From: Brachybacterium squillarum M-6-3
GTDB taxonomy: Bacteria > Actinomycetota > Actinomycetes > Actinomycetales > Dermabacteraceae
DNA length: 64,000 nucleotides
Reading direction: 5' to 3'
Assembly (NCBI RefSeq): GCF_000225825.1
Contig: NZ_AGBX01000007.1
Span: 496,001 to 560,000, forward strand
Positions 3,200-41,472 of the stretch are shown here, one piece after another. The position numbers and the translations under genes are program-made. How positions within the stretch are numbered: position 1 is the first letter of the stretch; each line of letters opens with the position of its first letter. Under the pieces are notes generated by a model. The model was not told the DNA's origin. It saw only the letters and a list, made by a program, of their open reading frames with translations, and searched no databases.

Positions 3200-4516
3200 T
3201 CAGTCCTCCCAGAAGTCCGCGCCGAGCGCCGTGAGCTTCTCGCGGAACAGCTCGTAGCCGCGGTCGATCAGGTCGATGCCGTGGATCGAGGAGACGCCGT
3301 CGGCGCCGAGCGCGGCGATCAGGTAGGAGAAGCCGCCGCGCAGGTCCGGCACGGTGATGTCGGCGCCGTGCAGCGGCTTGGGGCCGGAGATCACGGCGGA
3401 GTGGTTGTAGTTGCGGCGACCGAAACGGCAGCTGGAGCCGCCCAGGCACTCGCGGTACACCTGGATGCGGGCGCCCATGTCGTTCAGGGCGGAGGTGAAG
3501 CCCAGCCGGTTCTCGTACACGGTCTCGTGGACGATGGAGATGCCGTCGGCCTGGGTCAGCGCCACCACCAGCGGCTGCTGCCAGTCGGTCATCAGCCCGG
3601 GGTGGACGTCGGTCTCCACGGCGATGGACTTCAGCGGGGTGCCGGGGTGGAAGAACCGGATGCCCTCCTCGGTGATGTCCATCCCGCCGCCGATCTTGCG
3701 GAAGGTGTTCAGGAAGGTCGCCATCGGCTTCTGCTCGGCGCCGCGCACGAACACGGAGCCCTGGGTGACCAGTGCGGCGCAGGCCCAGGAGCCGGCCTCG
3801 ATGCGGTCCGAGAGGGCCTTGTGCTGGTAGCCGCCGAGGCGGTCGACGCCCTCGATGGTGATGGTGCGGTCGGTCTGCAGGGAGATGATCGCGCCCATCT
3901 TCTGCAGCACGGAGATGAGGTCCTCGATCTCCGGCTCGACGGCGGCGTTGGTCAGCTCGGTGACGCCCTGGGCGCGCACGGCGGTGAGCAGCACCTGCTC
4001 GGTGGCGCCGACGCTGGGGTACTCGAGGTGGATCTTGGCGCCGGTGAGGCCGTGCGGCGCGGTGATGGAGATGCCGAACTCGCGCTTGTCCACGACGGCG
4101 CCGAAGTTGCGCAGCACGTCGAGGTGGTAGTTGATCGGCCGGTCGCCGATCTTGCAGCCGCCGAGGTCGGGGATGATCGCCTCGCCGAGGCGGTGCAGCA
4201 GCGGGCCGCAGAACAGGATCGGGATGCGGGAGCTGCCGGCGTGGGCGTCGATCTCGGTGGCGTGCGCCTTTTCCACGTTGGAGGGGTCCATCGCGATGGT
4301 GCCGGCCTCGACGTCGCGCTCGACCTTGACGCCGTGGATGGCCAGCAGGTCGGAGACGATCTGCACGTCGCGGATGTCGGGGACGGACTGCAGCAGGCTG
4401 GGCTCCTCGCCCAGCAGCGCCGCGACCATCGCCTTCGAGACCAGGTTCTTGGCTCCGCGGACGGTGATCTCACCGTCGAGGGGGCGTCCGCCGCGCACGT
4501 GGAATGTCGAGCTCAT
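3200..4516 (-). CDS. murA: UDP-N-acetylglucosamine 1-carboxyvinyltransferase
   Basis: First committed step of peptidoglycan synthesis: transfers enolpyruvate from PEP to UDP-GlcNAc in the cytoplasm. 438 residues. Substrate-binding Lys23-Asn24 (RGAKN) and the catalytic-loop cysteine C121 (DLGGCKIG) are present, so this is the fosfomycin-sensitive Cys form rather than the Asp form known from mycobacteria. The ATG at 4514-4516 is preferred over an in-frame start 18 codons upstream because AAGGA lies at the right distance before it. A -10 box at 4569-4574 and the leuD terminator upstream make it the first gene of its operon. Confidence 0.97.
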   Translation of the reverse strand: MSSTFHVRGGRPLDGEITVRGAKNLVSKAMVAALLGEEPSLLQSVPDIRDVQIVSDLLAIHGVKVERDVEAGTIAMDPSNVEKAHATEIDAHAGSSRIPILFCGPLLHRLGEAIIPDLGGCKIGDRPINYHLDVLRNFGAVVDKREFGISITAPHGLTGAKIHLEYPSVGATEQVLLTAVRAQGVTELTNAAVEPEIEDLISVLQKMGAIISLQTDRTITIEGVDRLGGYQHKALSDRIEAGSWACAALVTQGSVFVRGAEQKPMATFLNTFRKIGGGMDITEEGIRFFHPGTPLKSIAVETDVHPGLMTDWQQPLVVALTQADGISIVHETVYENRLGFTSALNDMGARIQVYRECLGGSSCRFGRRNYNHSAVISGPKPLHGADITVPDLRGGFSYLIAALGADGVSSIHGIDLIDRGYELFREKLTALGADFWED

Positions 4517-9155: not shown

Positions 9156-10679
9156 TCAGGCGGCCAGACGCTCCTGCAGGGCGCGCAGGCGGGCCAGGCT
9201 GGAGGGCTTGCCCAGCAGCTCCATCGACTCGAACAGCGGCGGGGAGATGCGGCGGCCGGAGATCGCGCTGCGCAGCGGGCCGAAGGCGAGGCGCGGCTTG
9301 ATGCCCATGTCCTCGACGATGGCGGCGCGCAGGGCGGCCTCGAGGGTGGCGGCGTCGAAGGAGTCCTCGGGCACGGCCTCCACCTCGGTGACGGCGCGGG
9401 CCAGCACGGCGGCGGGGTCGTCACCGATCTTCCTCAGCGCGTCCTCCTGCACCTCGAGGTCGGCGTCGGCCACGAACAGGAAGCGCAGCATGTCGGGCGC
9501 CTCGGCCAGCAGGTTCATCCGCGGCTGCACCAGCGGGGTGGCGGCGACCAGCGGGGCCTGCTCGGCCTCGGTGACCGGATCGGAGACCACGCCGTCGGCC
9601 TGCAGGTAGGGCACCATCCGGGCGGTGAACTCGGCCTCGGGCAGCATCCGCATGTGGTCGGCGTTGATGGCGGTGGCCTTCTTGAAGTCCACCCGGGCGG
9701 GGTTCGGGTTCACCTGGGAGGCGTCGAAGCGCTCCACCATCTGCTCGCGGGTGAAGACGTCCTGGTCGGCGCTGTAGCCCCAGCCCAGCAGGGCCAGGTA
9801 GTTGACCATGCCCTCGGGCAGGAAGCCCTGTTCGCGGTAGCGGAACAGGTTCGACTCGGGGTCGCGCTTGGAGAGCTTCTTGTTCCCCTCCCCCATCACG
9901 TAGGGCAGGTGGCCGAAGCGCGGGATGGTCTCGGCGACGCCCACCTCGATCAGCGCCCGGTACAGGGCGATCTGGCGGGGCGTGGAGGAGAGCAGGTCCT
10001 CGCCGCGCAGCACGTGGGTGATGCCCATCAGGGCGTCGTCCACCGGGTTCACCAGGGTGTACAGCGGCTGTCCGTTGGCGCGGACCACCACGAAGTCGGG
10101 GGTGGAACCGGCTTTGAAGGTGATCTCGCCGCGCACCATGTCCTCGAAGACGATGTCGTCCTCGGGCATGCGCAGGCGCCACACCGGCTCGCGGCCCTCG
10201 GCGCGCAGGGCATCCTTCTGCTCGGCAGTCAGCTCGCGGTCGTGGCCGTCGTAGCCGAGCTGAGGGTCGCGGCCGGCGGCGCGGTGGCGCGCGGCGATCT
10301 CCTCGGCGGTGGAGAAGGACTCGTAGATCAGACCCGCCTCGGCGAGCTTCGCGATGACGTCCTGGTAGATCTCGCCGCGCTGGGACTGGCGGTAGGGGCC
10401 GTGGGGGCCGCCGACCTCGACGCCCTCGTCCCAGTCGATGCCGAGCCATCGCATGGCCTCGAGGAGCTGCTGGTAGGACTCCTCGCTGTCCCGCGCCCGG
10501 TCCGTGTCCTCGATGCGGAAGATCAGCTTCCCGCCGTGGTGGCGCGCGTGGGCCCAGTTGTACAGGGCCGTGCGCACCATGCCCACGTGGGGGGTGCCGG
10601 TGGGGCTGGGGCAGAAGCGCACGCGCACGTCGGCGCCGGTGGCCTCGGTGGTCGCGGCGGGAGCGGGGGCGGTGGTCAC
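9156..10679 (-). CDS. gltX: glutamyl-tRNA synthetase
   Basis: Class I synthetase that charges tRNA-Glu and, in organisms relying on GatCAB, also tRNA-Gln. 507 residues. The N-terminal HIGH-type motif appears as [11 protein letters not shown] and the KMSKS-type loop as KKLSKRD; the C-terminal alpha-helical anticodon domain is complete. The GTG start at 10677-10679 has a GAAGGAG Shine-Dalgarno. The frame stays open far upstream through the neighbouring gene, but that extension is a shadow. It follows the FAA-hydrolase-like gene by 47 bases. Whether the enzyme is non-discriminating is inferred from context, not seen directly. Confidence 0.96.
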
Positions 10680-32344: not shown

Positions 32345-33949
32345 TCAGTAGACGAGGTCGACGGGGTGGATGGCGTGGGCGCCGATGGCCTCGCCGATCT
32401 CCTCGGAGAGCTCGCGGGGAGCGGCCTCGTCGAGGATGAGGACCACGAGGGCCTCGGCGCCGGGGGTGTTGCCGGCGCGGGAGACCTGCATGCCGGCGAT
32501 GTTCACGCCGGCCGCGCCGAGGCGGGCGCCGTACTGGCCGATCAGGCCGGGGCCGTCCTGGTAGCGGATCACCAGCAGGTGGTCGGCCAGGGCCAGGTCG
32601 AGCGAGTGGCCGTTGACCTCGACGAGCTTGTGCTCCTTGTCGACGCCGCTGAGGGTGCCGGAGACGGAGACGACGGTGCCGTCGCGCAGGGTGCCGCGCA
32701 GGGAGATGACGTTGCGGAAGCGCTCGCGGGTCTCGTCGGTCTCGAGCTGCACGCGGATGCCGCGCTCGTCGGCGAGGACGGGGGCGTTGACGTAGCTGAC
32801 CTGCTCGGCGACGGTGCCGCGGAACAGGCCGCGCAGGGCGGAGAGCTTCACGGCGGTGACGTCGCGGGTGGCGATCTCGCCGCGCACCAGGATGTCCAGC
32901 AGCTGCGGGGCCTCCCCCGCCAGGGCGGTGAAGAGCTGGCCGAGCCGGTCGGCGAGGCCGATGCCGGGGCGCACCAGGTCGTCGATGGCGCCGCCGGCGA
33001 CATTGACCGCGTCGGGGACCAGCTCACCGGCCAGGGCCAGGCGCACGGACTGGGCGACGGCCACGCCGGCCTTCTCCTGCGCCTCGGCGGTGGAGGCGCC
33101 CAGGTGCGGGGTGAGGGTGACGGAGTCCAGCTCCAGCAGCTTCGCGGCGGTCTCGGAGGACGCGGGCGGCTCCGAGGTGTACACGTCCAGGGCGGCGCCG
33201 GCGATCTGCTTGCTGACCAGCGCCTGGTAGAGCGCCTCCTCGTCGATGAGACCACCGCGCGCGGCGTTGACGACGTGCAGGGAGGGCTTGGCGACCGCGA
33301 ACTCCTCGGCGCCGATGATGCCGGTGGTCTCGGGGGTCTTGGGCATGTGCACGGTGACCACGTCGGACTCGCGCATCAGCTCGTCCAGCTCGACCACCCG
33401 GGCGCCGAGCTCGGCGGCGCGGGTGTGGTTGACGTAGGGGTCGTAGGCCAGCAGGTGCACGCCGAAGGGGGCGAGGCGCTCGGCGACGAGCTGGCCGATG
33501 CGGCCGAAGCCGACGATGCCGACGGTCTTGCCCAGCAGCTCCACGCCGGTGAGCTGCTTGCGCTCCCAGCGGCCGGCCTTCACGGAGGTGTCGGCGCGAC
33601 CGAGGTTGCGCAGCGAGGCCAGGATCAGGGCCACGGCCAGCTCGGCGGCGGAGACGATGTTCGAGGTGGGGGCGTTGATCACCATCGCGCCGGCCACGGT
33701 GGCGGCCTGCACGTCGACGTTGTCCAGACCCACGCCGGCGCGGGCGACGACCTTGAGGTTCCCGGCGGCGAACACCTCGGCGTCCACCTGGGTGGCGGAG
33801 CGCACCAGCAGTGCGTCGGCCTCGGCCACCGCGGCGAGCAGGGCGGCACGGTCGGTGCCGTCCACCTGGCGGACCTCGACGCCGGATCCCAGCACCTCGA
33901 CGGTGGCGGGCGAGAGCTCTTCGGCCAGCAGGACGACAGGACGGGTCAC
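32345..33949 (-). CDS. serA: D-3-phosphoglycerate dehydrogenase
   Basis: First step of serine synthesis. 534 residues with the four-part long form: substrate domain, Rossmann domain with [17 protein letters not shown], the intervening ASB domain (about 320-450) and a C-terminal ACT domain for serine feedback. Catalytic segments include [13 protein letters not shown] and TPHLGAST. I choose the GTG at 33947-33949, which has a GGAGGT site 7 bases away, over an in-frame GTG ten codons upstream with none. It heads the serA-leuB-ilvE-cimA unit; a possible -10 TATCCT lies at 34016-34021. Confidence 0.95.
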
Positions 33950-34278
33950 GGGGGCTACCTCCACAGGAGCGCTGTTCACAGGGCGATCAGACGAGGGCTC
34001 ACCGAGCCCCGCTCAAGGATACGACCGTGTCCGCCATGCGGGCTCTGTGCTCACGATGCGGGCGTTGATTACACCCCACGGCCGGGCACACACCCTGTTC
34101 GTGGACACGCTGATCCCGGCGCCTGCCAGCACCTGCTGGGGAAGCAAGATGAGACGCAAGCATGAGCCCCGGTGAACCCGACGCACCTCCACGCCTTGAC
34201 CCAGTCGGCCCCCGGCTAGGATGAACCTGTCCGCGTGCACCTGTCGGACGCAGCTCGCTCACTGAGAGGAGGCCCCGC
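33950..34278. other. 329-base spacer: serA upstream region and left edge of insert
   Basis: Divergent spacer. The serA-proximal part is GC rich, with a possible minus-strand -10 TATCCT at 34016-34021. From about 34060 the sequence becomes less GC rich. It contains a small palindrome CCAGCA-CC-TGCTGG (about 34126-34139) and the promoter of the AAA gene. I find no ORF, tRNA end or integrase, and no repeat of 10 or more bases shared with the right flank at 37854-37954. Confidence 0.6.
34196..34222 (+). promoter_or_regulatory. promoter of the AAA-protease operon
   Basis: -35 TTGACC (34196-34201) and -10 TAGGAT (34217-34222) with a slightly short spacer of 15 bases. Transcription would start near 34229, giving a 50-base leader with GAGAGGAGG at 34264-34272. 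Unlike many genes here it is not leaderless. Confidence 0.55.
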
Positions 34279-35280
34279 ATGGCGACCAAGGACCAGATGA
34301 AAGCTCTTGTGAAGAGCCACGCGGACGGCGATGACCCTCAGTTCTACGCCGTTGCAATGCAGGTTGCAGCCAAGGCCGCGCGGACCGGGCAGGAAAAGTT
34401 CGCGCAAGAGCTTCGGGACCTTGTTAACGACTTGCGTGAGAGCGCCGACAACAAGGCTCAGGTCGCGTCGATCTTGCCGTTAACAAAGCCCAGGGGCGAG
34501 CTCGGCGCTCTTCTCAACGTGTCATACCCTGACTCGCGCCTCGGGGATCTCGTGCTTGCTGACAAGCTTGCCGAGCGACTGCAGCACGTCCTTCTGGAAC
34601 AGCGCCAGCGTGACGCGCTAGCGAAGCACGGCCTGACCCCAGCGCGCAGGGTGCTTCTCATCGGACCTCCGGGGACCGGCAAGACCTCGACTGCCAGAGT
34701 CATCGCGGGTGAACTCGGGCTGCCGTTGTTTTCGATCCGACTTGACACGGTTCTAACGAAGTTCATGGGTGAGACCGCAGCAAAATTGCGCCTCGTGTTC
34801 GATGCGCTCGCGGAGACTCGCGGAGTCTATCTCTTCGACGAAGTCGATGCGCTCGGTGGAGACCGGGCGGTGCAGAACGATGTGGGAGAGATCCGTCGAG
34901 TTCTGAACTCATTCCTCCAGTTCCTCGAGGAAGACACCTCTGAAAGCATCATCATCGCGGCTACAAATTATCCGGAACTGCTAGATAATGCGCTGTTCCG
35001 TCGCTTCGACACCATGATGAACTTCGCACTTCCGGACGACACATCCGTGAAATCTGTGATCAAAAATCAATTATCGTCCTTCCAGGTCAGCAACCTCAGC
35101 TGGCCGCGGATCTTCCCTGCTGCCCTAGGGCTGAGCCACGCCGAGATCTCAACAGCGGCAGAGAACGCGGCGAAGCGGACCGTACTGAGCAACCGCACCC
35201 GAGTACGCACAGACGACCTCATCATTGCTCTTGAGGAGCGTCCCCGCCAAGGCCGTTCGTCCGAAGACACTCGTTCGTAA
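34279..35280 (+). CDS. classical AAA+ ATPase paired with S8 protease
   Basis: 333 residues, single AAA module. Residues 1-85 are a helical N-terminal region of unknown fold. Walker A GPPGTGKT (129-136), Walker B YLFDEVD (184-190), sensor 1 AATN (227-230) and arginine finger pair RR (241-242) are intact, and the C-terminal lid has GLSHAEIS. The segment KFMGET (161-166) fits the pore loop 1 of FtsH/spastin-type translocases, so it probably threads protein. No DNA-binding, nuclease or membrane part is seen. A strong GGAGG lies 6 bases before the ATG. The stop is 2 bases before the protease start. GC content and codon use differ clearly from neighbours. I infer an unfoldase feeding the partner protease; the biological role is unknown. 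Confidence 0.9.
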   Translation: MATKDQMKALVKSHADGDDPQFYAVAMQVAAKAARTGQEKFAQELRDLVNDLRESADNKAQVASILPLTKPRGELGALLNVSYPDSRLGDLVLADKLAERLQHVLLEQRQRDALAKHGLTPARRVLLIGPPGTGKTSTARVIAGELGLPLFSIRLDTVLTKFMGETAAKLRLVFDALAETRGVYLFDEVDALGGDRAVQNDVGEIRRVLNSFLQFLEEDTSESIIIAATNYPELLDNALFRRFDTMMNFALPDDTSVKSVIKNQLSSFQVSNLSWPRIFPAALGLSHAEISTAAENAAKRTVLSNRTRVRTDDLIIALEERPRQGRSSEDTRS

Positions 35281-35282
35281 GC

Positions 35283-37853
35283 ATGGCCGAACGAGACCGC
35301 CCGCACATTGTCGTGCCAACGCCACCCTCGACCGAGCCGTTCACACTCGCAGGACAAGGCGGCAGCAGCGACAAGCCCACCTTCGGAGGTGACCGCGAGT
35401 CCCACGGCAAAAGGTTGACCTCAGAGTTCAAGATAGCCTACGAGCTACCCAGTGACGAGACTTTAGAGCCAAAGGGCACATTTATCACGTTCGCGTCTTT
35501 CCCCGGGCTTGAACTCGCAATCGAGAGTCTGGACTCCCAACGAAAAGGCATACAGCCTGAGCTCATTGCCGTTCGAGAAGTCGCGCACCCCGACGGCAAT
35601 ATGCTCGAAGCAACTGTATTTATCCCAGAGGGCAAGAAGGAGTATTTTCTCAGCAAACTCGAGAAGTATGTCGATACGGCGACCAAAGGAATAGGCAAGC
35701 CGGAGAACGCCACGCTTATCGAAGGGATTGCTTCGATACGCCGCGCGACGATACGTGAACTCTGGACAGACCCCGACGATCAGTTCCCGAGTGACGAAAA
35801 CAAGCTCTGCTGGTGGGAGGTCTGGCTTCGTAAATCAGATGGGAACGAACGCCTACGGCTCAGTGAGTACGCTCGCCAACGCGACTTGAAGACGAGTGAT
35901 CACTACCTCGGATTTGGTGACCGAACAGTGATTCTTCTGCAGGCAACTGCGGCGCAGCTCGCATTAACGTTCCGCGCAGTGGATGATATTGCCGAGCTCA
36001 GGCGCCCGCACGAGGTCTCGAGCTTCCTGCCCGAGCTCTACGCTTTCGAGCAGAAGGAATGGGTGCAGGACCTTCTACATAGGGCATCCCCAGCCGCTAA
36101 CGGATCGCCGGTAGTGTGCATCTTGGATCGCGGTGTCCAAGCAGACCACCTGTTGCTCAACGACTCCCTGTCGCATGAAGACCTGCATGCAGCAGACCTG
36201 ACATGGCGAAGGGATGTTGCGGTACATGCTCACGGCACCGAGATGGCAGGTCTTGCGCTCTATGGGGATCTCCAAGCGGCGATCCTAGACCCACACAACG
36301 TGCGGCTACAGCACCGCCTCGAATCGGTCAAGCTTCTCCCCGACGCCGGACACAATGAGCCCGATGTGTATGGAGCAATCACCGCACGGGCGGTAGACCA
36401 GCCTGAGATCTCCGCCGCCGATCGAAGACGAGTCTTCATGCTCGCCGTAACAGCAACTGCCGGGTCGGGAGGGGCTACCGACGGTGCCTCTGCCGCCGGT
36501 CCGAAGCAAGAATCGGGCCGTCCGACGGCCTGGTCAGCGACGGTCGACGCGCTCACCTATGGGCGCGCGATCGACGATACGACGCCAAACTTCACTTATC
36601 TGGACCGGGGTGAAACTCGCCGACCGCGTCTGTTCATCGTTTCGGCCGGGAATATTCGCGACATCCGTGCGGAGGACGACCATCTTGACCGCAGCGATGC
36701 TGAAGCAGTTGAAGACCCCGCACAGTCATGGAATGCCCTTACCGTTGGCGCTTACGCAGAGCATGACGCAATGGACCACGCGCTCGAAGCTTTCAAGGGC
36801 TACGTGCCGATGGCTCCCCGGGGCGAACTGTCGCCGTCTAGCCGTACCTCCGTTTCATTCGAACAGAAGCGATGGCCTTTCAAGCCCGATGTCGTGGCAG
36901 CGGGTGGCAATCTTGCTCGCACCCCAGATGGAACAGGCGTTGACAGCCCGGGGAATCTCGCGATTCTTACGACGAGACTCCAACGACCCGGCGAGGGCTA
37001 CTTCACCACCACTCGAGACACATCAGCGGCCACTGCTCAGGTCGCGTCGATCGCTGCCGACATATACGCAACCTATCCGCAAATGCGGCCGGAGACGGTA
37101 CGTGCATTGATCGTGCACTCGGCAGAGTGGACCGAGGCCATGCGATCCCGAGTGGACGACGCTCGGAATAAGGCGGATGCCGTCAACCTACTACGCCGTT
37201 ACGGGATGGGCGTGCCGAGTCTCAAACGTGCGACTCGCAGCGCGATGAACGCACTTACGCTGGTCGCTGAGTCGAGCATCCACCCTTACGAACGCGACGG
37301 GCAGTCGAGCAATGGGAAAGCGCGTGAGATGAATCTGCACGAGATGCCGTGGCCGATCGAGCAGCTCACCGAGCTCGGCGAGACTCAGGTGAAGTTGCGT
37401 GTCACGCTGTCCTATTTCGTGGAGCCCAACCCGTCGAGCCGCGGCTGGTCCGGGCGCTACGCGTATCCATCGCATGGGCTCCGATTCGCGACTAGGCGCC
37501 CGGAGGAGAGTGTCGACTCGTTCCGTAAGCGCATCAATAAGCAGGCGCGGGTAGACGGGCGGAAGCCGCTGTCACTGGCAACCGAGAAGGGGTGGTTGTT
37601 CGGCAGTGGCCAGCAGAGATCAGCCGGATCGATCCATACCGACATCTGGACCGGCTCGGCAGTCGATCTCGCGAGCAAGGAAGCTGTCGCCGTATACCCG
37701 GTCCTAGGGTGGTGGAAAAACCGTCCCCAGATGGATCAGAGCGACCGCGGGGTGGACTACTCCCTTGTGGTCAGTATCGAGTCGCCAGAAGTCGACGTGG
37801 ATCTCTGGACGCCGGTGGCGCAACAGGTCGCTGCGACCGCCATCGAGGTGTAG
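35283..37853 (+). CDS. large cytoplasmic S8 (subtilisin-like) serine protease
   Basis: 856 residues. No signal peptide or membrane helix, so it should stay in the cytoplasm. Residues 1-270 form a long N-terminal region with a short conserved-looking RESHGKRL (38-45). The subtilase domain (about 275-640) has a full active site: Asp282 (LDRG), His317 (HAHGTEMAG), oxyanion Asn457 (SAGN) and Ser581. The serine stands in DTSAA rather than the usual GTSxA. A C-terminal roughly 200-residue region (about 650-856) is not recognised. It has no good ribosome site and starts 2 bases after the AAA stop, so translation is coupled. Base composition is low for this genome (35461-35520 is 31/60 G+C against 45/60 at 42241-42300). 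Confidence 0.9.
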   Translation: MAERDRPHIVVPTPPSTEPFTLAGQGGSSDKPTFGGDRESHGKRLTSEFKIAYELPSDETLEPKGTFITFASFPGLELAIESLDSQRKGIQPELIAVREVAHPDGNMLEATVFIPEGKKEYFLSKLEKYVDTATKGIGKPENATLIEGIASIRRATIRELWTDPDDQFPSDENKLCWWEVWLRKSDGNERLRLSEYARQRDLKTSDHYLGFGDRTVILLQATAAQLALTFRAVDDIAELRRPHEVSSFLPELYAFEQKEWVQDLLHRASPAANGSPVVCILDRGVQADHLLLNDSLSHEDLHAADLTWRRDVAVHAHGTEMAGLALYGDLQAAILDPHNVRLQHRLESVKLLPDAGHNEPDVYGAITARAVDQPEISAADRRRVFMLAVTATAGSGGATDGASAAGPKQESGRPTAWSATVDALTYGRAIDDTTPNFTYLDRGETRRPRLFIVSAGNIRDIRAEDDHLDRSDAEAVEDPAQSWNALTVGAYAEHDAMDHALEAFKGYVPMAPRGELSPSSRTSVSFEQKRWPFKPDVVAAGGNLARTPDGTGVDSPGNLAILTTRLQRPGEGYFTTTRDTSAATAQVASIAADIYATYPQMRPETVRALIVHSAEWTEAMRSRVDDARNKADAVNLLRRYGMGVPSLKRATRSAMNALTLVAESSIHPYERDGQSSNGKAREMNLHEMPWPIEQLTELGETQVKLRVTLSYFVEPNPSSRGWSGRYAYPSHGLRFATRRPEESVDSFRKRINKQARVDGRKPLSLATEKGWLFGSGQQRSAGSIHTDIWTGSAVDLASKEAVAVYPVLGWWKNRPQMDQSDRGVDYSLVVSIESPEVDVDLWTPVAQQVAATAIEV

Positions 37854-37954
37854 CCGGTCGCACGACGGCCCACCAAGAAGGTGGATAGATCAGGCTGGGC
37901 AGTGCATCTCGACTGGCTCTTCGGGTAGTCAAGTCAGCCGAAGCTGGAATCGAA

Positions 37955-37993
37955 GGGCGGGCGCCCGATCCGTGGATCGGACGCCCGCCCTTT
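37955..37993. terminator. bidirectional terminator between protease gene and ilvC
   Basis: GGGCGGGCG and CGCCCGCCC plus CCGATC and GATCGG form a 15-bp stem with one mismatch and a 4-base loop; TTT follows on the plus strand. It serves the convergent protease and ilvC genes. GC content is host-like, so the right edge of the insert is probably before 37955. Confidence 0.75.
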
Positions 37994-38009
37994 GCGGTGT
38001 TAGGCGGGG

Positions 38010-41472
<3,463 letters not shown>

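Follow-up and report, generated by a model that had tools for sequence, protein, structure and literature searches.

IetAS is reportedly an anti-phage system, having been described as such by Gao and others in 2020, and the other described systems that most resemble the locus considered here are likewise two-gene modules in which an AAA+ ATPase is combined with a subtilisin-like protease. On the Agrobacterium plasmid pTiC58 the ietAS pair is plasmid-borne and tied to plasmid stability. In sgiAT, from the Salmonella Genomic Island 1 (SGI1), an AAA antitoxin and a subtilisin toxin have been demonstrated experimentally, according to PMC5006074, on what is a mobilisable resistance island of enterobacteria. 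The _0132/_0133 pair (TA132/3) of the minimal mycoplasma, described in PMC6755753 and PMC8562856, has a toxin of 757 and an antitoxin of 353 residues. PMC11878078, from 2025, calls the mechanism of IetAS unknown. The subject of this analysis is a gene pair of this type, referred to as ietA and ietS, in a 64,000-nucleotide stretch of the actinobacterium Brachybacterium squillarum M-6-3 (contig NZ_AGBX01000007.1, positions 496,001 to 560,000; hereafter the window). The window proteins, of 333 and 856 residues, share with TA132/3 the two-gene order and, if the likeness holds, the polarity in which loss of the antitoxin is lethal; they are likened to TA132/3 and to sgiAT by description. Unlike pTiC58 ietAS and sgiAT, the window copy lies between the genes serA and ilvC.

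Judged from its sequence, the window pair is a divergent IetAS module, of a known kind, and falls in a poorly annotated clade. The ATPase matches the PADLOC model for IetA (PDLC02196) over its full length, at 3.6e-74 across residues 4-324, and the protease gives a weaker match to IetS (PDLC02198, 4.7e-36), so that the initial annotation, which could attach no named system to the pair, is superseded on this point. The locus combines a full-length ATPase of IetA type, an IetS with its Asp/His/Asn/Ser residues, an ietA gene upstream on the same strand and an accessory, mobile distribution. Gene pair, gene order and catalytic residues are the same as in anti-phage IetAS (IetA/IetS of PADLOC, IteA/IteS of NCBIfam), but the NCBIfam equivalogs NF042959 and NF042956 match below their curated cut-offs, at 214.2 against 510 and 58.2 against 900 bits, and with both thresholds missed the placing of the pair within the narrow IteA/IteS clade was rejected. 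FastTree trees of both proteins separate the window clade, with support of about 0.99-1.0, from 11 other pairs of the same taxonomic order, which include a PADLOC-typical IetAS of 1071 bits (L070) and a divergently arranged pair from genome G310 (L217). Within the window clade the IetS models are matched by 54 of 54 sampled members, at best with 1.7e-55. A plasmid copy from Rhizobium etli, 41% identical to the window IetS, sits among the aligned clade members, and the S8 peptidase of NC_003065.3, presumably the ietS of pTiC58, is 48.8% identical to this copy over 97% of its length. The homology of the window protease to that of pTiC58 thus runs through the R. etli copy and connects the window pair with the plasmid for which ietAS was described. 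The clade is large and was missed by NCBI curated models in the case tested; at least 549 relatives were confirmed in a genome scan, and the plasmid records inspected mostly annotate clade members as an ATP-binding protein and an S8 family peptidase.

The two genes are almost always found together. Among 95 clade loci (L073-L167, a set that takes in the window's own locus and four further duplicates), all but L114, which starts at a contig end, were assessable, and in 93 of these 94 the two genes share a strand and ietA comes immediately before ietS, with a gap of -8 to 43 bases, the IetA of some being cut by a contig end. The sole exception is L086, present whole as L217:6746-10524 of G310, where ietA and an ietS-like gene are divergent. 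After the removal before the counts of five loci with identical IetS (L074, L094, L101, L102, L161), and of 11 that are cut, broken or divergent (L086, L104, L105, L110, L112, L119, L130, L149, L154, L157, L159), 79 pairs were aligned, and their mirror-tree correlation is 0.924, against a maximum of 0.102 in 500 shuffles. The pairing is beyond chance, with gene order kept in 93 of 94 loci. The possibility raised by the initial annotation, that homologues are usually unpaired, falls away for the protease. A simple reading is complicated by lone copies of the ATPase, which make up 9 of 34 matches in an order-wide search and occur at 10 viral loci.

What, then, does the ATPase do to its partner? 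The most direct information comes from experiments on homologues. According to PMC5006074 the SGI1 subtilase sgiT cuts transformation of E. coli 100- to 1000-fold and the AAA protein sgiA cancels the effect; with the operon driven by its own promoter no post-segregational killing was seen in the assay used, and a figure legend gives IetS of pTiC58 as the toxin and IetA as the antitoxin. For the minimal mycoplasma, PMC6755753 has knock-out of the AAA gene alone as lethal and that of the peptidase alone, or of both genes, as viable, and TA132/3 is called functional in PMC8562856. These published experiments are the main reason why the evidence points to IetA as a restraint upon IetS. The initial annotation had the ATPase activating the subtilase or feeding it with a target; because the homologous subtilase is toxic on its own and the AAA+ protein protective, the direction of action is probably the reverse. 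Natural losses lean the same way, with IetS broken and IetA readable in five cases and the converse in one. IetA reads through where IetS carries frameshifts (L105), one stop (L110), a C-terminal frameshift (L119) or an insertion (L149), and on the Pseudonocardia plasmid pLS2-1 an IS1380 element lies inside the peptidase gene, next to an IetA of 309 residues that has its motifs and a short C-terminus.

The reading preferred here, to which a probability of about 60% is given, is that the window pair is a divergent IetAS module in which a protease toxin is held by an ATP-driven antitoxin. The sequence shows a single gene pair, its stop and start codons adjoining, that encodes both IetA and IetS. 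Free IetS would, by analogy with its homologues, be a protease active in the cytoplasm and able to kill the cell or arrest it. The AAA+ ring of IetA would act on IetS through its pore loop and ATP hydrolysis and so keep it inactive, for example by pulling on or holding a prodomain-like N-terminal part, a step for which there is comparative support. Should IetA fail or disappear, whether because a phage takes over, because the carrying element is lost or in response to a specific trigger, IetS would be freed and the infected or element-free cell would die. The death of the cell would serve either to defend against phage through abortive infection or to stabilise the mobile element.

The comparative support for the third of these steps comes from copies of IetA that live without a protease. 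The search of 396 order-level genomes gave 34 IetA matches in 32 genomes, 25 with an IetS-type gene in the fetched stretch and 9 without, and none of the nine lone-IetA genomes is among the 14 that carry a clade IetS; G197, which is one of the nine, carries a canonical pair in addition. The pore-loop glycine G164 and the Walker B glutamate E188 are each present in 90 of 90 paired IetA proteins (79 from the clade, 11 from the other pairs) and in 0 of 9 of these lone, chromosomal-type ones, all nine of which retain the Walker A lysine and R241. The pattern suggests that threading matters where the protease is present, and that IetS is the reason why threading and ATP hydrolysis have been retained. 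To this extent the initial annotation, which had tied the motor to the protease, fits the loss of the pore loop in lone chromosomal-type IetA, and its feeding direction is the part left unsupported. The lone copies nest within the window clade in the trees, have a host-like codon score in 8 of 9 cases and share a common neighbourhood, which by eye has a gyrA-like gene in six and polysaccharide-type genes in most; Pfam found Wzz-type genes beside both of the two loci tested (L218 and L219) and a low-molecular-weight phosphatase beside L218. The comparison of paired with lone IetA turns the question of whether the ring acts on the protease into a direct one and, together with the lone viral copies described below, seems to be new.

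Structure prediction offers a possible point of contact. AlphaFold2 models built from the 79-row alignments are of good confidence, with a mean predicted local distance difference test score (pLDDT) of 87 for IetS and 86 for IetA. Ahead of the catalytic domain IetS is predicted to fold into two small units (Table 1), and Pfam gave no match up to E 1 over residues 1-256. The top Foldseek match of the IetS model is the Tk-SP pro-subtilase with its propeptide (8.3e-18), with a 409-residue Tk-SP chain of another entry following at 6.1e-14, and relatives of solved structure found by sequence cover parts of the subtilisin core only (18 distinct sequences, best 2.4e-7). The models weakly suggest that IetS contains its own prodomain-like unit, on which IetA could pull or keep a grip.

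Several observations weigh against a toxin held by its ATPase. At L157:4964-5916, in a metagenome bin, a frameshift interrupts IetA between residues 53 and 68 and the IetS reading frame stays open throughout, at L130 both genes are altered, and three of the five IetS losses (L110, L119, L149) are in metagenome bins, that of L119 being merely a C-terminal frameshift. The prodomain interpretation is a weak one, drawn from secondary-structure order and fold matches of a model. The lone chromosomal-type copies may represent one or two events, not nine: on a tree built without the pore-loop and Walker B columns the paired and lone labels need two changes, and a single origin is not rejected (approximately unbiased (AU) test, p 0.08). 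Ten lone viral IetA with an intact motor and no protease found in the record mean that motor and protease are not strictly bound to each other, unless these copies act on a host IetS. Finally, with the NCBIfam cut-offs missed, the anti-phage activity of the IteA/IteS clade may not transfer to the window pair; the NCBIfam IteS model matched 12 of 396 genomes of the phylum at 1e-20, none above its cut-off, together with 2 of 14 control genomes below it, and the window's genome had no match; the loci so matched were set aside.

The strongest competing explanation, though itself unlikely, is that of the initial annotation, an ATP-dependent protease machine in which proteins of phage or host are unfolded by IetA and passed on to IetS for cutting. 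The nearest solved folds of IetA are PAN, the proteasome Rpt subunits, p97 and FtsH, the near-constant pairing speaks for such a machine, the retention of the pore-loop glycine in paired IetA and its loss in all nine lone copies of the order search suits it too, and an L157-like loss of IetA with IetS open would be less costly. FtsH, PAN with the proteasome, Clp and Lon share the AAA+ pore-loop motor, and the window operon likewise pairs it with a protease. The window proteins differ, however, in that the protease is a separate chain of another class which in homologues is toxic without the motor; motor and peptidase occupy two open reading frames (ORFs) of one domain each, unlike the single polypeptides of FtsH and Lon, and the two ORFs are separate in all 94 clade loci. 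An obligate feeder would not leave the homologous protease toxic without its ATPase, nor would the ATPase be protective. The lone viral IetA have an intact motor, and the records searched hold no protease that it could feed; the IetS Foldseek matches listed are ordinary subtilases and proprotein convertases.

Those viral copies are of interest in themselves. From 144 viral-contig loci with IetA, 80 were kept, of which 60 have an S8 partner and 10 (on 9 contigs) have none in the 2.7-5 kilobases (kb) downstream, the last 10 being undecided. All 60 paired and all 10 lone proteins have the pore-loop glycine and the Walker B glutamate. The whole records of the lone copies contained no clade-type IetS in 8 of 9 cases, records that may be fragments. 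Several of the lone genes stand among phage functions: L341:4986-5981 follows genes for TerL and a portal protein, with the major head protein three ORFs on; L344:4944-5987 is among baseplate genes; L360:765-1712 is near a head-tail adaptor; and L313:5001-6128 and L317:5001-6047 lie beside a phage-type DNA polymerase and a RecT-type gene. The contig of L372 looks bacterial, the one neighbour tested at L326 had no PHROGs match, and L370 and L318 are among the other lone loci. If IetA is an antitoxin, counter-defence IetA genes are to be expected on viruses, and the lone viral copies are on sequence grounds candidate counter-defence antitoxins, which would make them ready-made candidates for inhibiting the system. 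The combined proposal, that IetA is a threading antitoxin of its partner protease, that lone viral IetA act as counter-defence against a host IetS and that lone actinobacterial IetA are retired copies put to new use, is tentative, at odds clearly short of even. A role for lone viral IetA was not found in the open-licence literature searched, in which a paper on anti-defence by plasmids (PMC11541004) uses the words orphan antitoxin. A further observation concerns L326 (record G797), where a 42-residue weak match to the IetS N-terminus (3581-3706, E 0.0012) accompanies a whole IetA; this is perhaps another case of a protease lost and an ATPase kept.

In its distribution the pair is a patchy, horizontally moving accessory element. 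Clade IetS is found at 1e-25 in 14 of the 396 order-level genomes and 13 of 110 genera (the window's own genome and the divergent G310 included), and a near full-length IetS in 4 of 47 genomes of the family, the window's own among them; the other three carriers, out of 46, show identities of 70% (G044), 43% (G007) and 41% (G021). Copies of the same genus are 39-43% identical to the window IetS, and the closest named relatives among the matches listed, at 71-73%, come from other families (Microbacteriaceae bacterium X2B, Propionicicella and an Arachnia bin). Homologues also occur in 480 of 72,556 plasmid records, 336 of these typed as conjugative, in 2 of 50,697 phage records and at 48 viral-contig loci. 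The window's genome (3.19 Mb in 8 contigs) has one copy of the pair and no second IetS-type subtilase (1 IetS match), and the four further matches to IetA in it score less well (the best 3.7e-21, at 30% identity). The insert is flanked by serA (32345-33979, minus strand) and ilvC (38010-39041, minus strand). Homology with empty sites stops at 34060 and restarts at 37955, the right-hand match being from one congener (L018), and G+C content, 71-76% towards serA and 65-74% towards ilvC, falls to 55-65% in the insert. The two flanking genes are neighbours in 17 of 37 congeners, with matches about 30-262 bases apart, and in 18 the gap equivalent to 33980-38009 of the window holds 1.5-46.8 kb of differing ORFs, which makes it a variable site; two were not assessable (G028, with no serA match at threshold, and G032, split over contigs). 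The link with accessory genomes drawn in the initial annotation was thus well founded, and the vertically inherited core pair that it had weighed as the contrary outcome is not what the family genomes and the distant closest relatives display.

A module for plasmid or island maintenance by addiction, with no role in phage defence, is less probable again than the feeding machine. The plasmid records, most of them conjugative, speak for it, as do the description of sgiAT and pTiC58 ietAS as stability systems and the relaxases beside two family-level loci (G021 and G043). The window copy, however, is an insert of some 3.9 kb between serA and ilvC in which ietA and ietS are the sole long ORFs that could be assigned, a related clade is named anti-phage by NCBIfam, and the neighbourhoods of 14 clade loci, taken together, hold defence genes. 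A housekeeping pair of unrelated function is scarcely credible: 7 of 11 genomes in a different genus retain a lone IetA relative, in a neighbourhood that they share, but IetS is near full-length in so few family genomes, its closest relatives (with the 70% of G044) lie so far outside the genus and serA and ilvC so often adjoin in congeners that the case has little to stand on.

The defence neighbourhood was assessed with PADLOC, counting matches at 1e-20 as strong and using ORFs of at least 259 residues. Among 102 such ORFs (of 117) around 14 clade loci, the best 25 of 63 families include type IIG and type I restriction, two cyclases, two E1-E2 proteins, PsyrT, PD-Lambda-1, DpdF and mad2/3/8. 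Among 91 ORFs (of 97) in nine control stretches, hand-chosen within pair-carrying genomes and not drawn at random, the best 25 of 29 families include PD-T4-6 models, a kinase, GlgB and mad6, with one ORF each, and do not include CBASS (the cyclic oligonucleotide-based antiphage signalling system), type I or IIG restriction, PsyrT or PD-Lambda-1. The tally is a lower bound, a spurious antisense ORF having displaced the patatin gene of L069. Upstream of the pair in that locus (L069:1024-8544, G021) are a TrwC relaxase, a patatin effector, a CD-NTase and an E1-E2 protein, which by gene content would be a type II CBASS. For the G007 pair the next gene on the far side encodes an MmeI-like restriction-methylation protein, and a TrwC relaxase lies close to the canonical pair of G043. 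The suggestion of a defence or abortive-infection type of module gains from these CBASS and restriction neighbours and from the accessory pairing.

At the level of the locus itself, an ORF check and direct reading confirmed the two genes, their positions and the 2-base gap between them (TAA, gc, ATG), which suggests coupled translation. Pfam assigns the products to AAA (PF00004, 4.1e-31) and Peptidase_S8 (PF00082, 4.2e-51). The AAA+ motifs and S8 residues listed in the initial annotation are all present and conserved: K135, G164, D187, E188, N230 (sensor 1), R241 and R242 of IetA, and D282, H317, N457 and S581 of IetS, are invariant in 79 of 79 aligned homologues. No hydrophobic N-terminus was found in IetS (best 19-residue Kyte-Doolittle mean 0.2 within the first 60 residues), nor any strongly hydrophobic stretch in either protein, which upholds the stated absence of a signal peptide and is in line with a cytoplasmic enzyme. 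The single shared promoter could not be substantiated, as a sigma-70 consensus scan returned 0 sites against 0.7 in shuffles. The same type of consensus scan gave no report for the hairpin that follows ietS, a similar one being present in the empty site L018.

Table 1. Features of the ietAS insert in window coordinates, with the lone IetA loci used for comparison
Feature	Position	Strand	Basis or remark
Accessory insert of about 3.9 kb with ietA and ietS	34061..37954		Homology break against empty congener sites; composition
Ribosome-binding site AGGAGG of ietA	34267..34272	+	Read directly
ietA, single-module AAA+ ATPase, predicted antitoxin/regulator	34279..35280	+	333 residues; PADLOC, Pfam, model
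IetA N-terminal three-helix region (residues 1-62; helices 4-17, 20-35, 39-62)	34279..34464	+	Model; conserved
IetA Walker A GPPGTGKT (129-136)	34663..34686	+	Motif and alignment
IetA pore loop KFMGET (161-166)	34759..34776	+	G164 in 90/90 paired IetA
IetA Walker B LFDE (185-188)	34831..34842	+	E188 in 90/90 paired IetA
IetA arginine fingers R241 R242	34999..35004	+	Motif and alignment
ietS, cytoplasmic S8 subtilase, predicted toxin/effector	35283..37853	+	856 residues; PADLOC, Pfam, model
IetS N1 (65-155), ferredoxin-like order strand-helix-strand-strand-helix-strand	35475..35747	+	Model secondary structure
IetS N2 (176-240), second such unit, directly before the catalytic domain, possibly prodomain-like by position and order	35808..36002	+	Model; inference
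IetS S8 catalytic domain (254-652) with D282, H317, N457, S581	36042..37238	+	Pfam, alignment, model
IetS C-terminal domain (653-856), on average the most conserved part	37239..37850	+	Model, alignment
GC-rich hairpin in the ietS-ilvC gap, likely a terminator that belongs to the original site	37955..37990		Read directly
Lone IetA loci	L215, L216, L218-L224		Genomes G106, G171, G151, G091, G197, G158, G210, G145, G132

Some minor matches within the family were set apart. Those in G038 and G039, two species of another genus of the family, had been considered as a stand-alone C-terminal domain, which was rejected as the rest of the frames is unlike IetS in both species; they are probably remnants of a decayed IetS C-terminus in similar surroundings (L071, about 9568-9780; L072, about 9543-9725) and were not counted as pairs. 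A match in G020 (1.3e-4, residues 248-359) was taken as an unrelated S8 protein and dropped. Two congeners have in their serA-ilvC site proteins of 562 and 584 residues with similar starts and no PADLOC match (L047:389-2077 and L048:152-1906). By eye, the contents of this site elsewhere include an ABC transporter with a TetR-like regulator and lipoprotein-like genes, the 46.8 kb stretch being that of G009.

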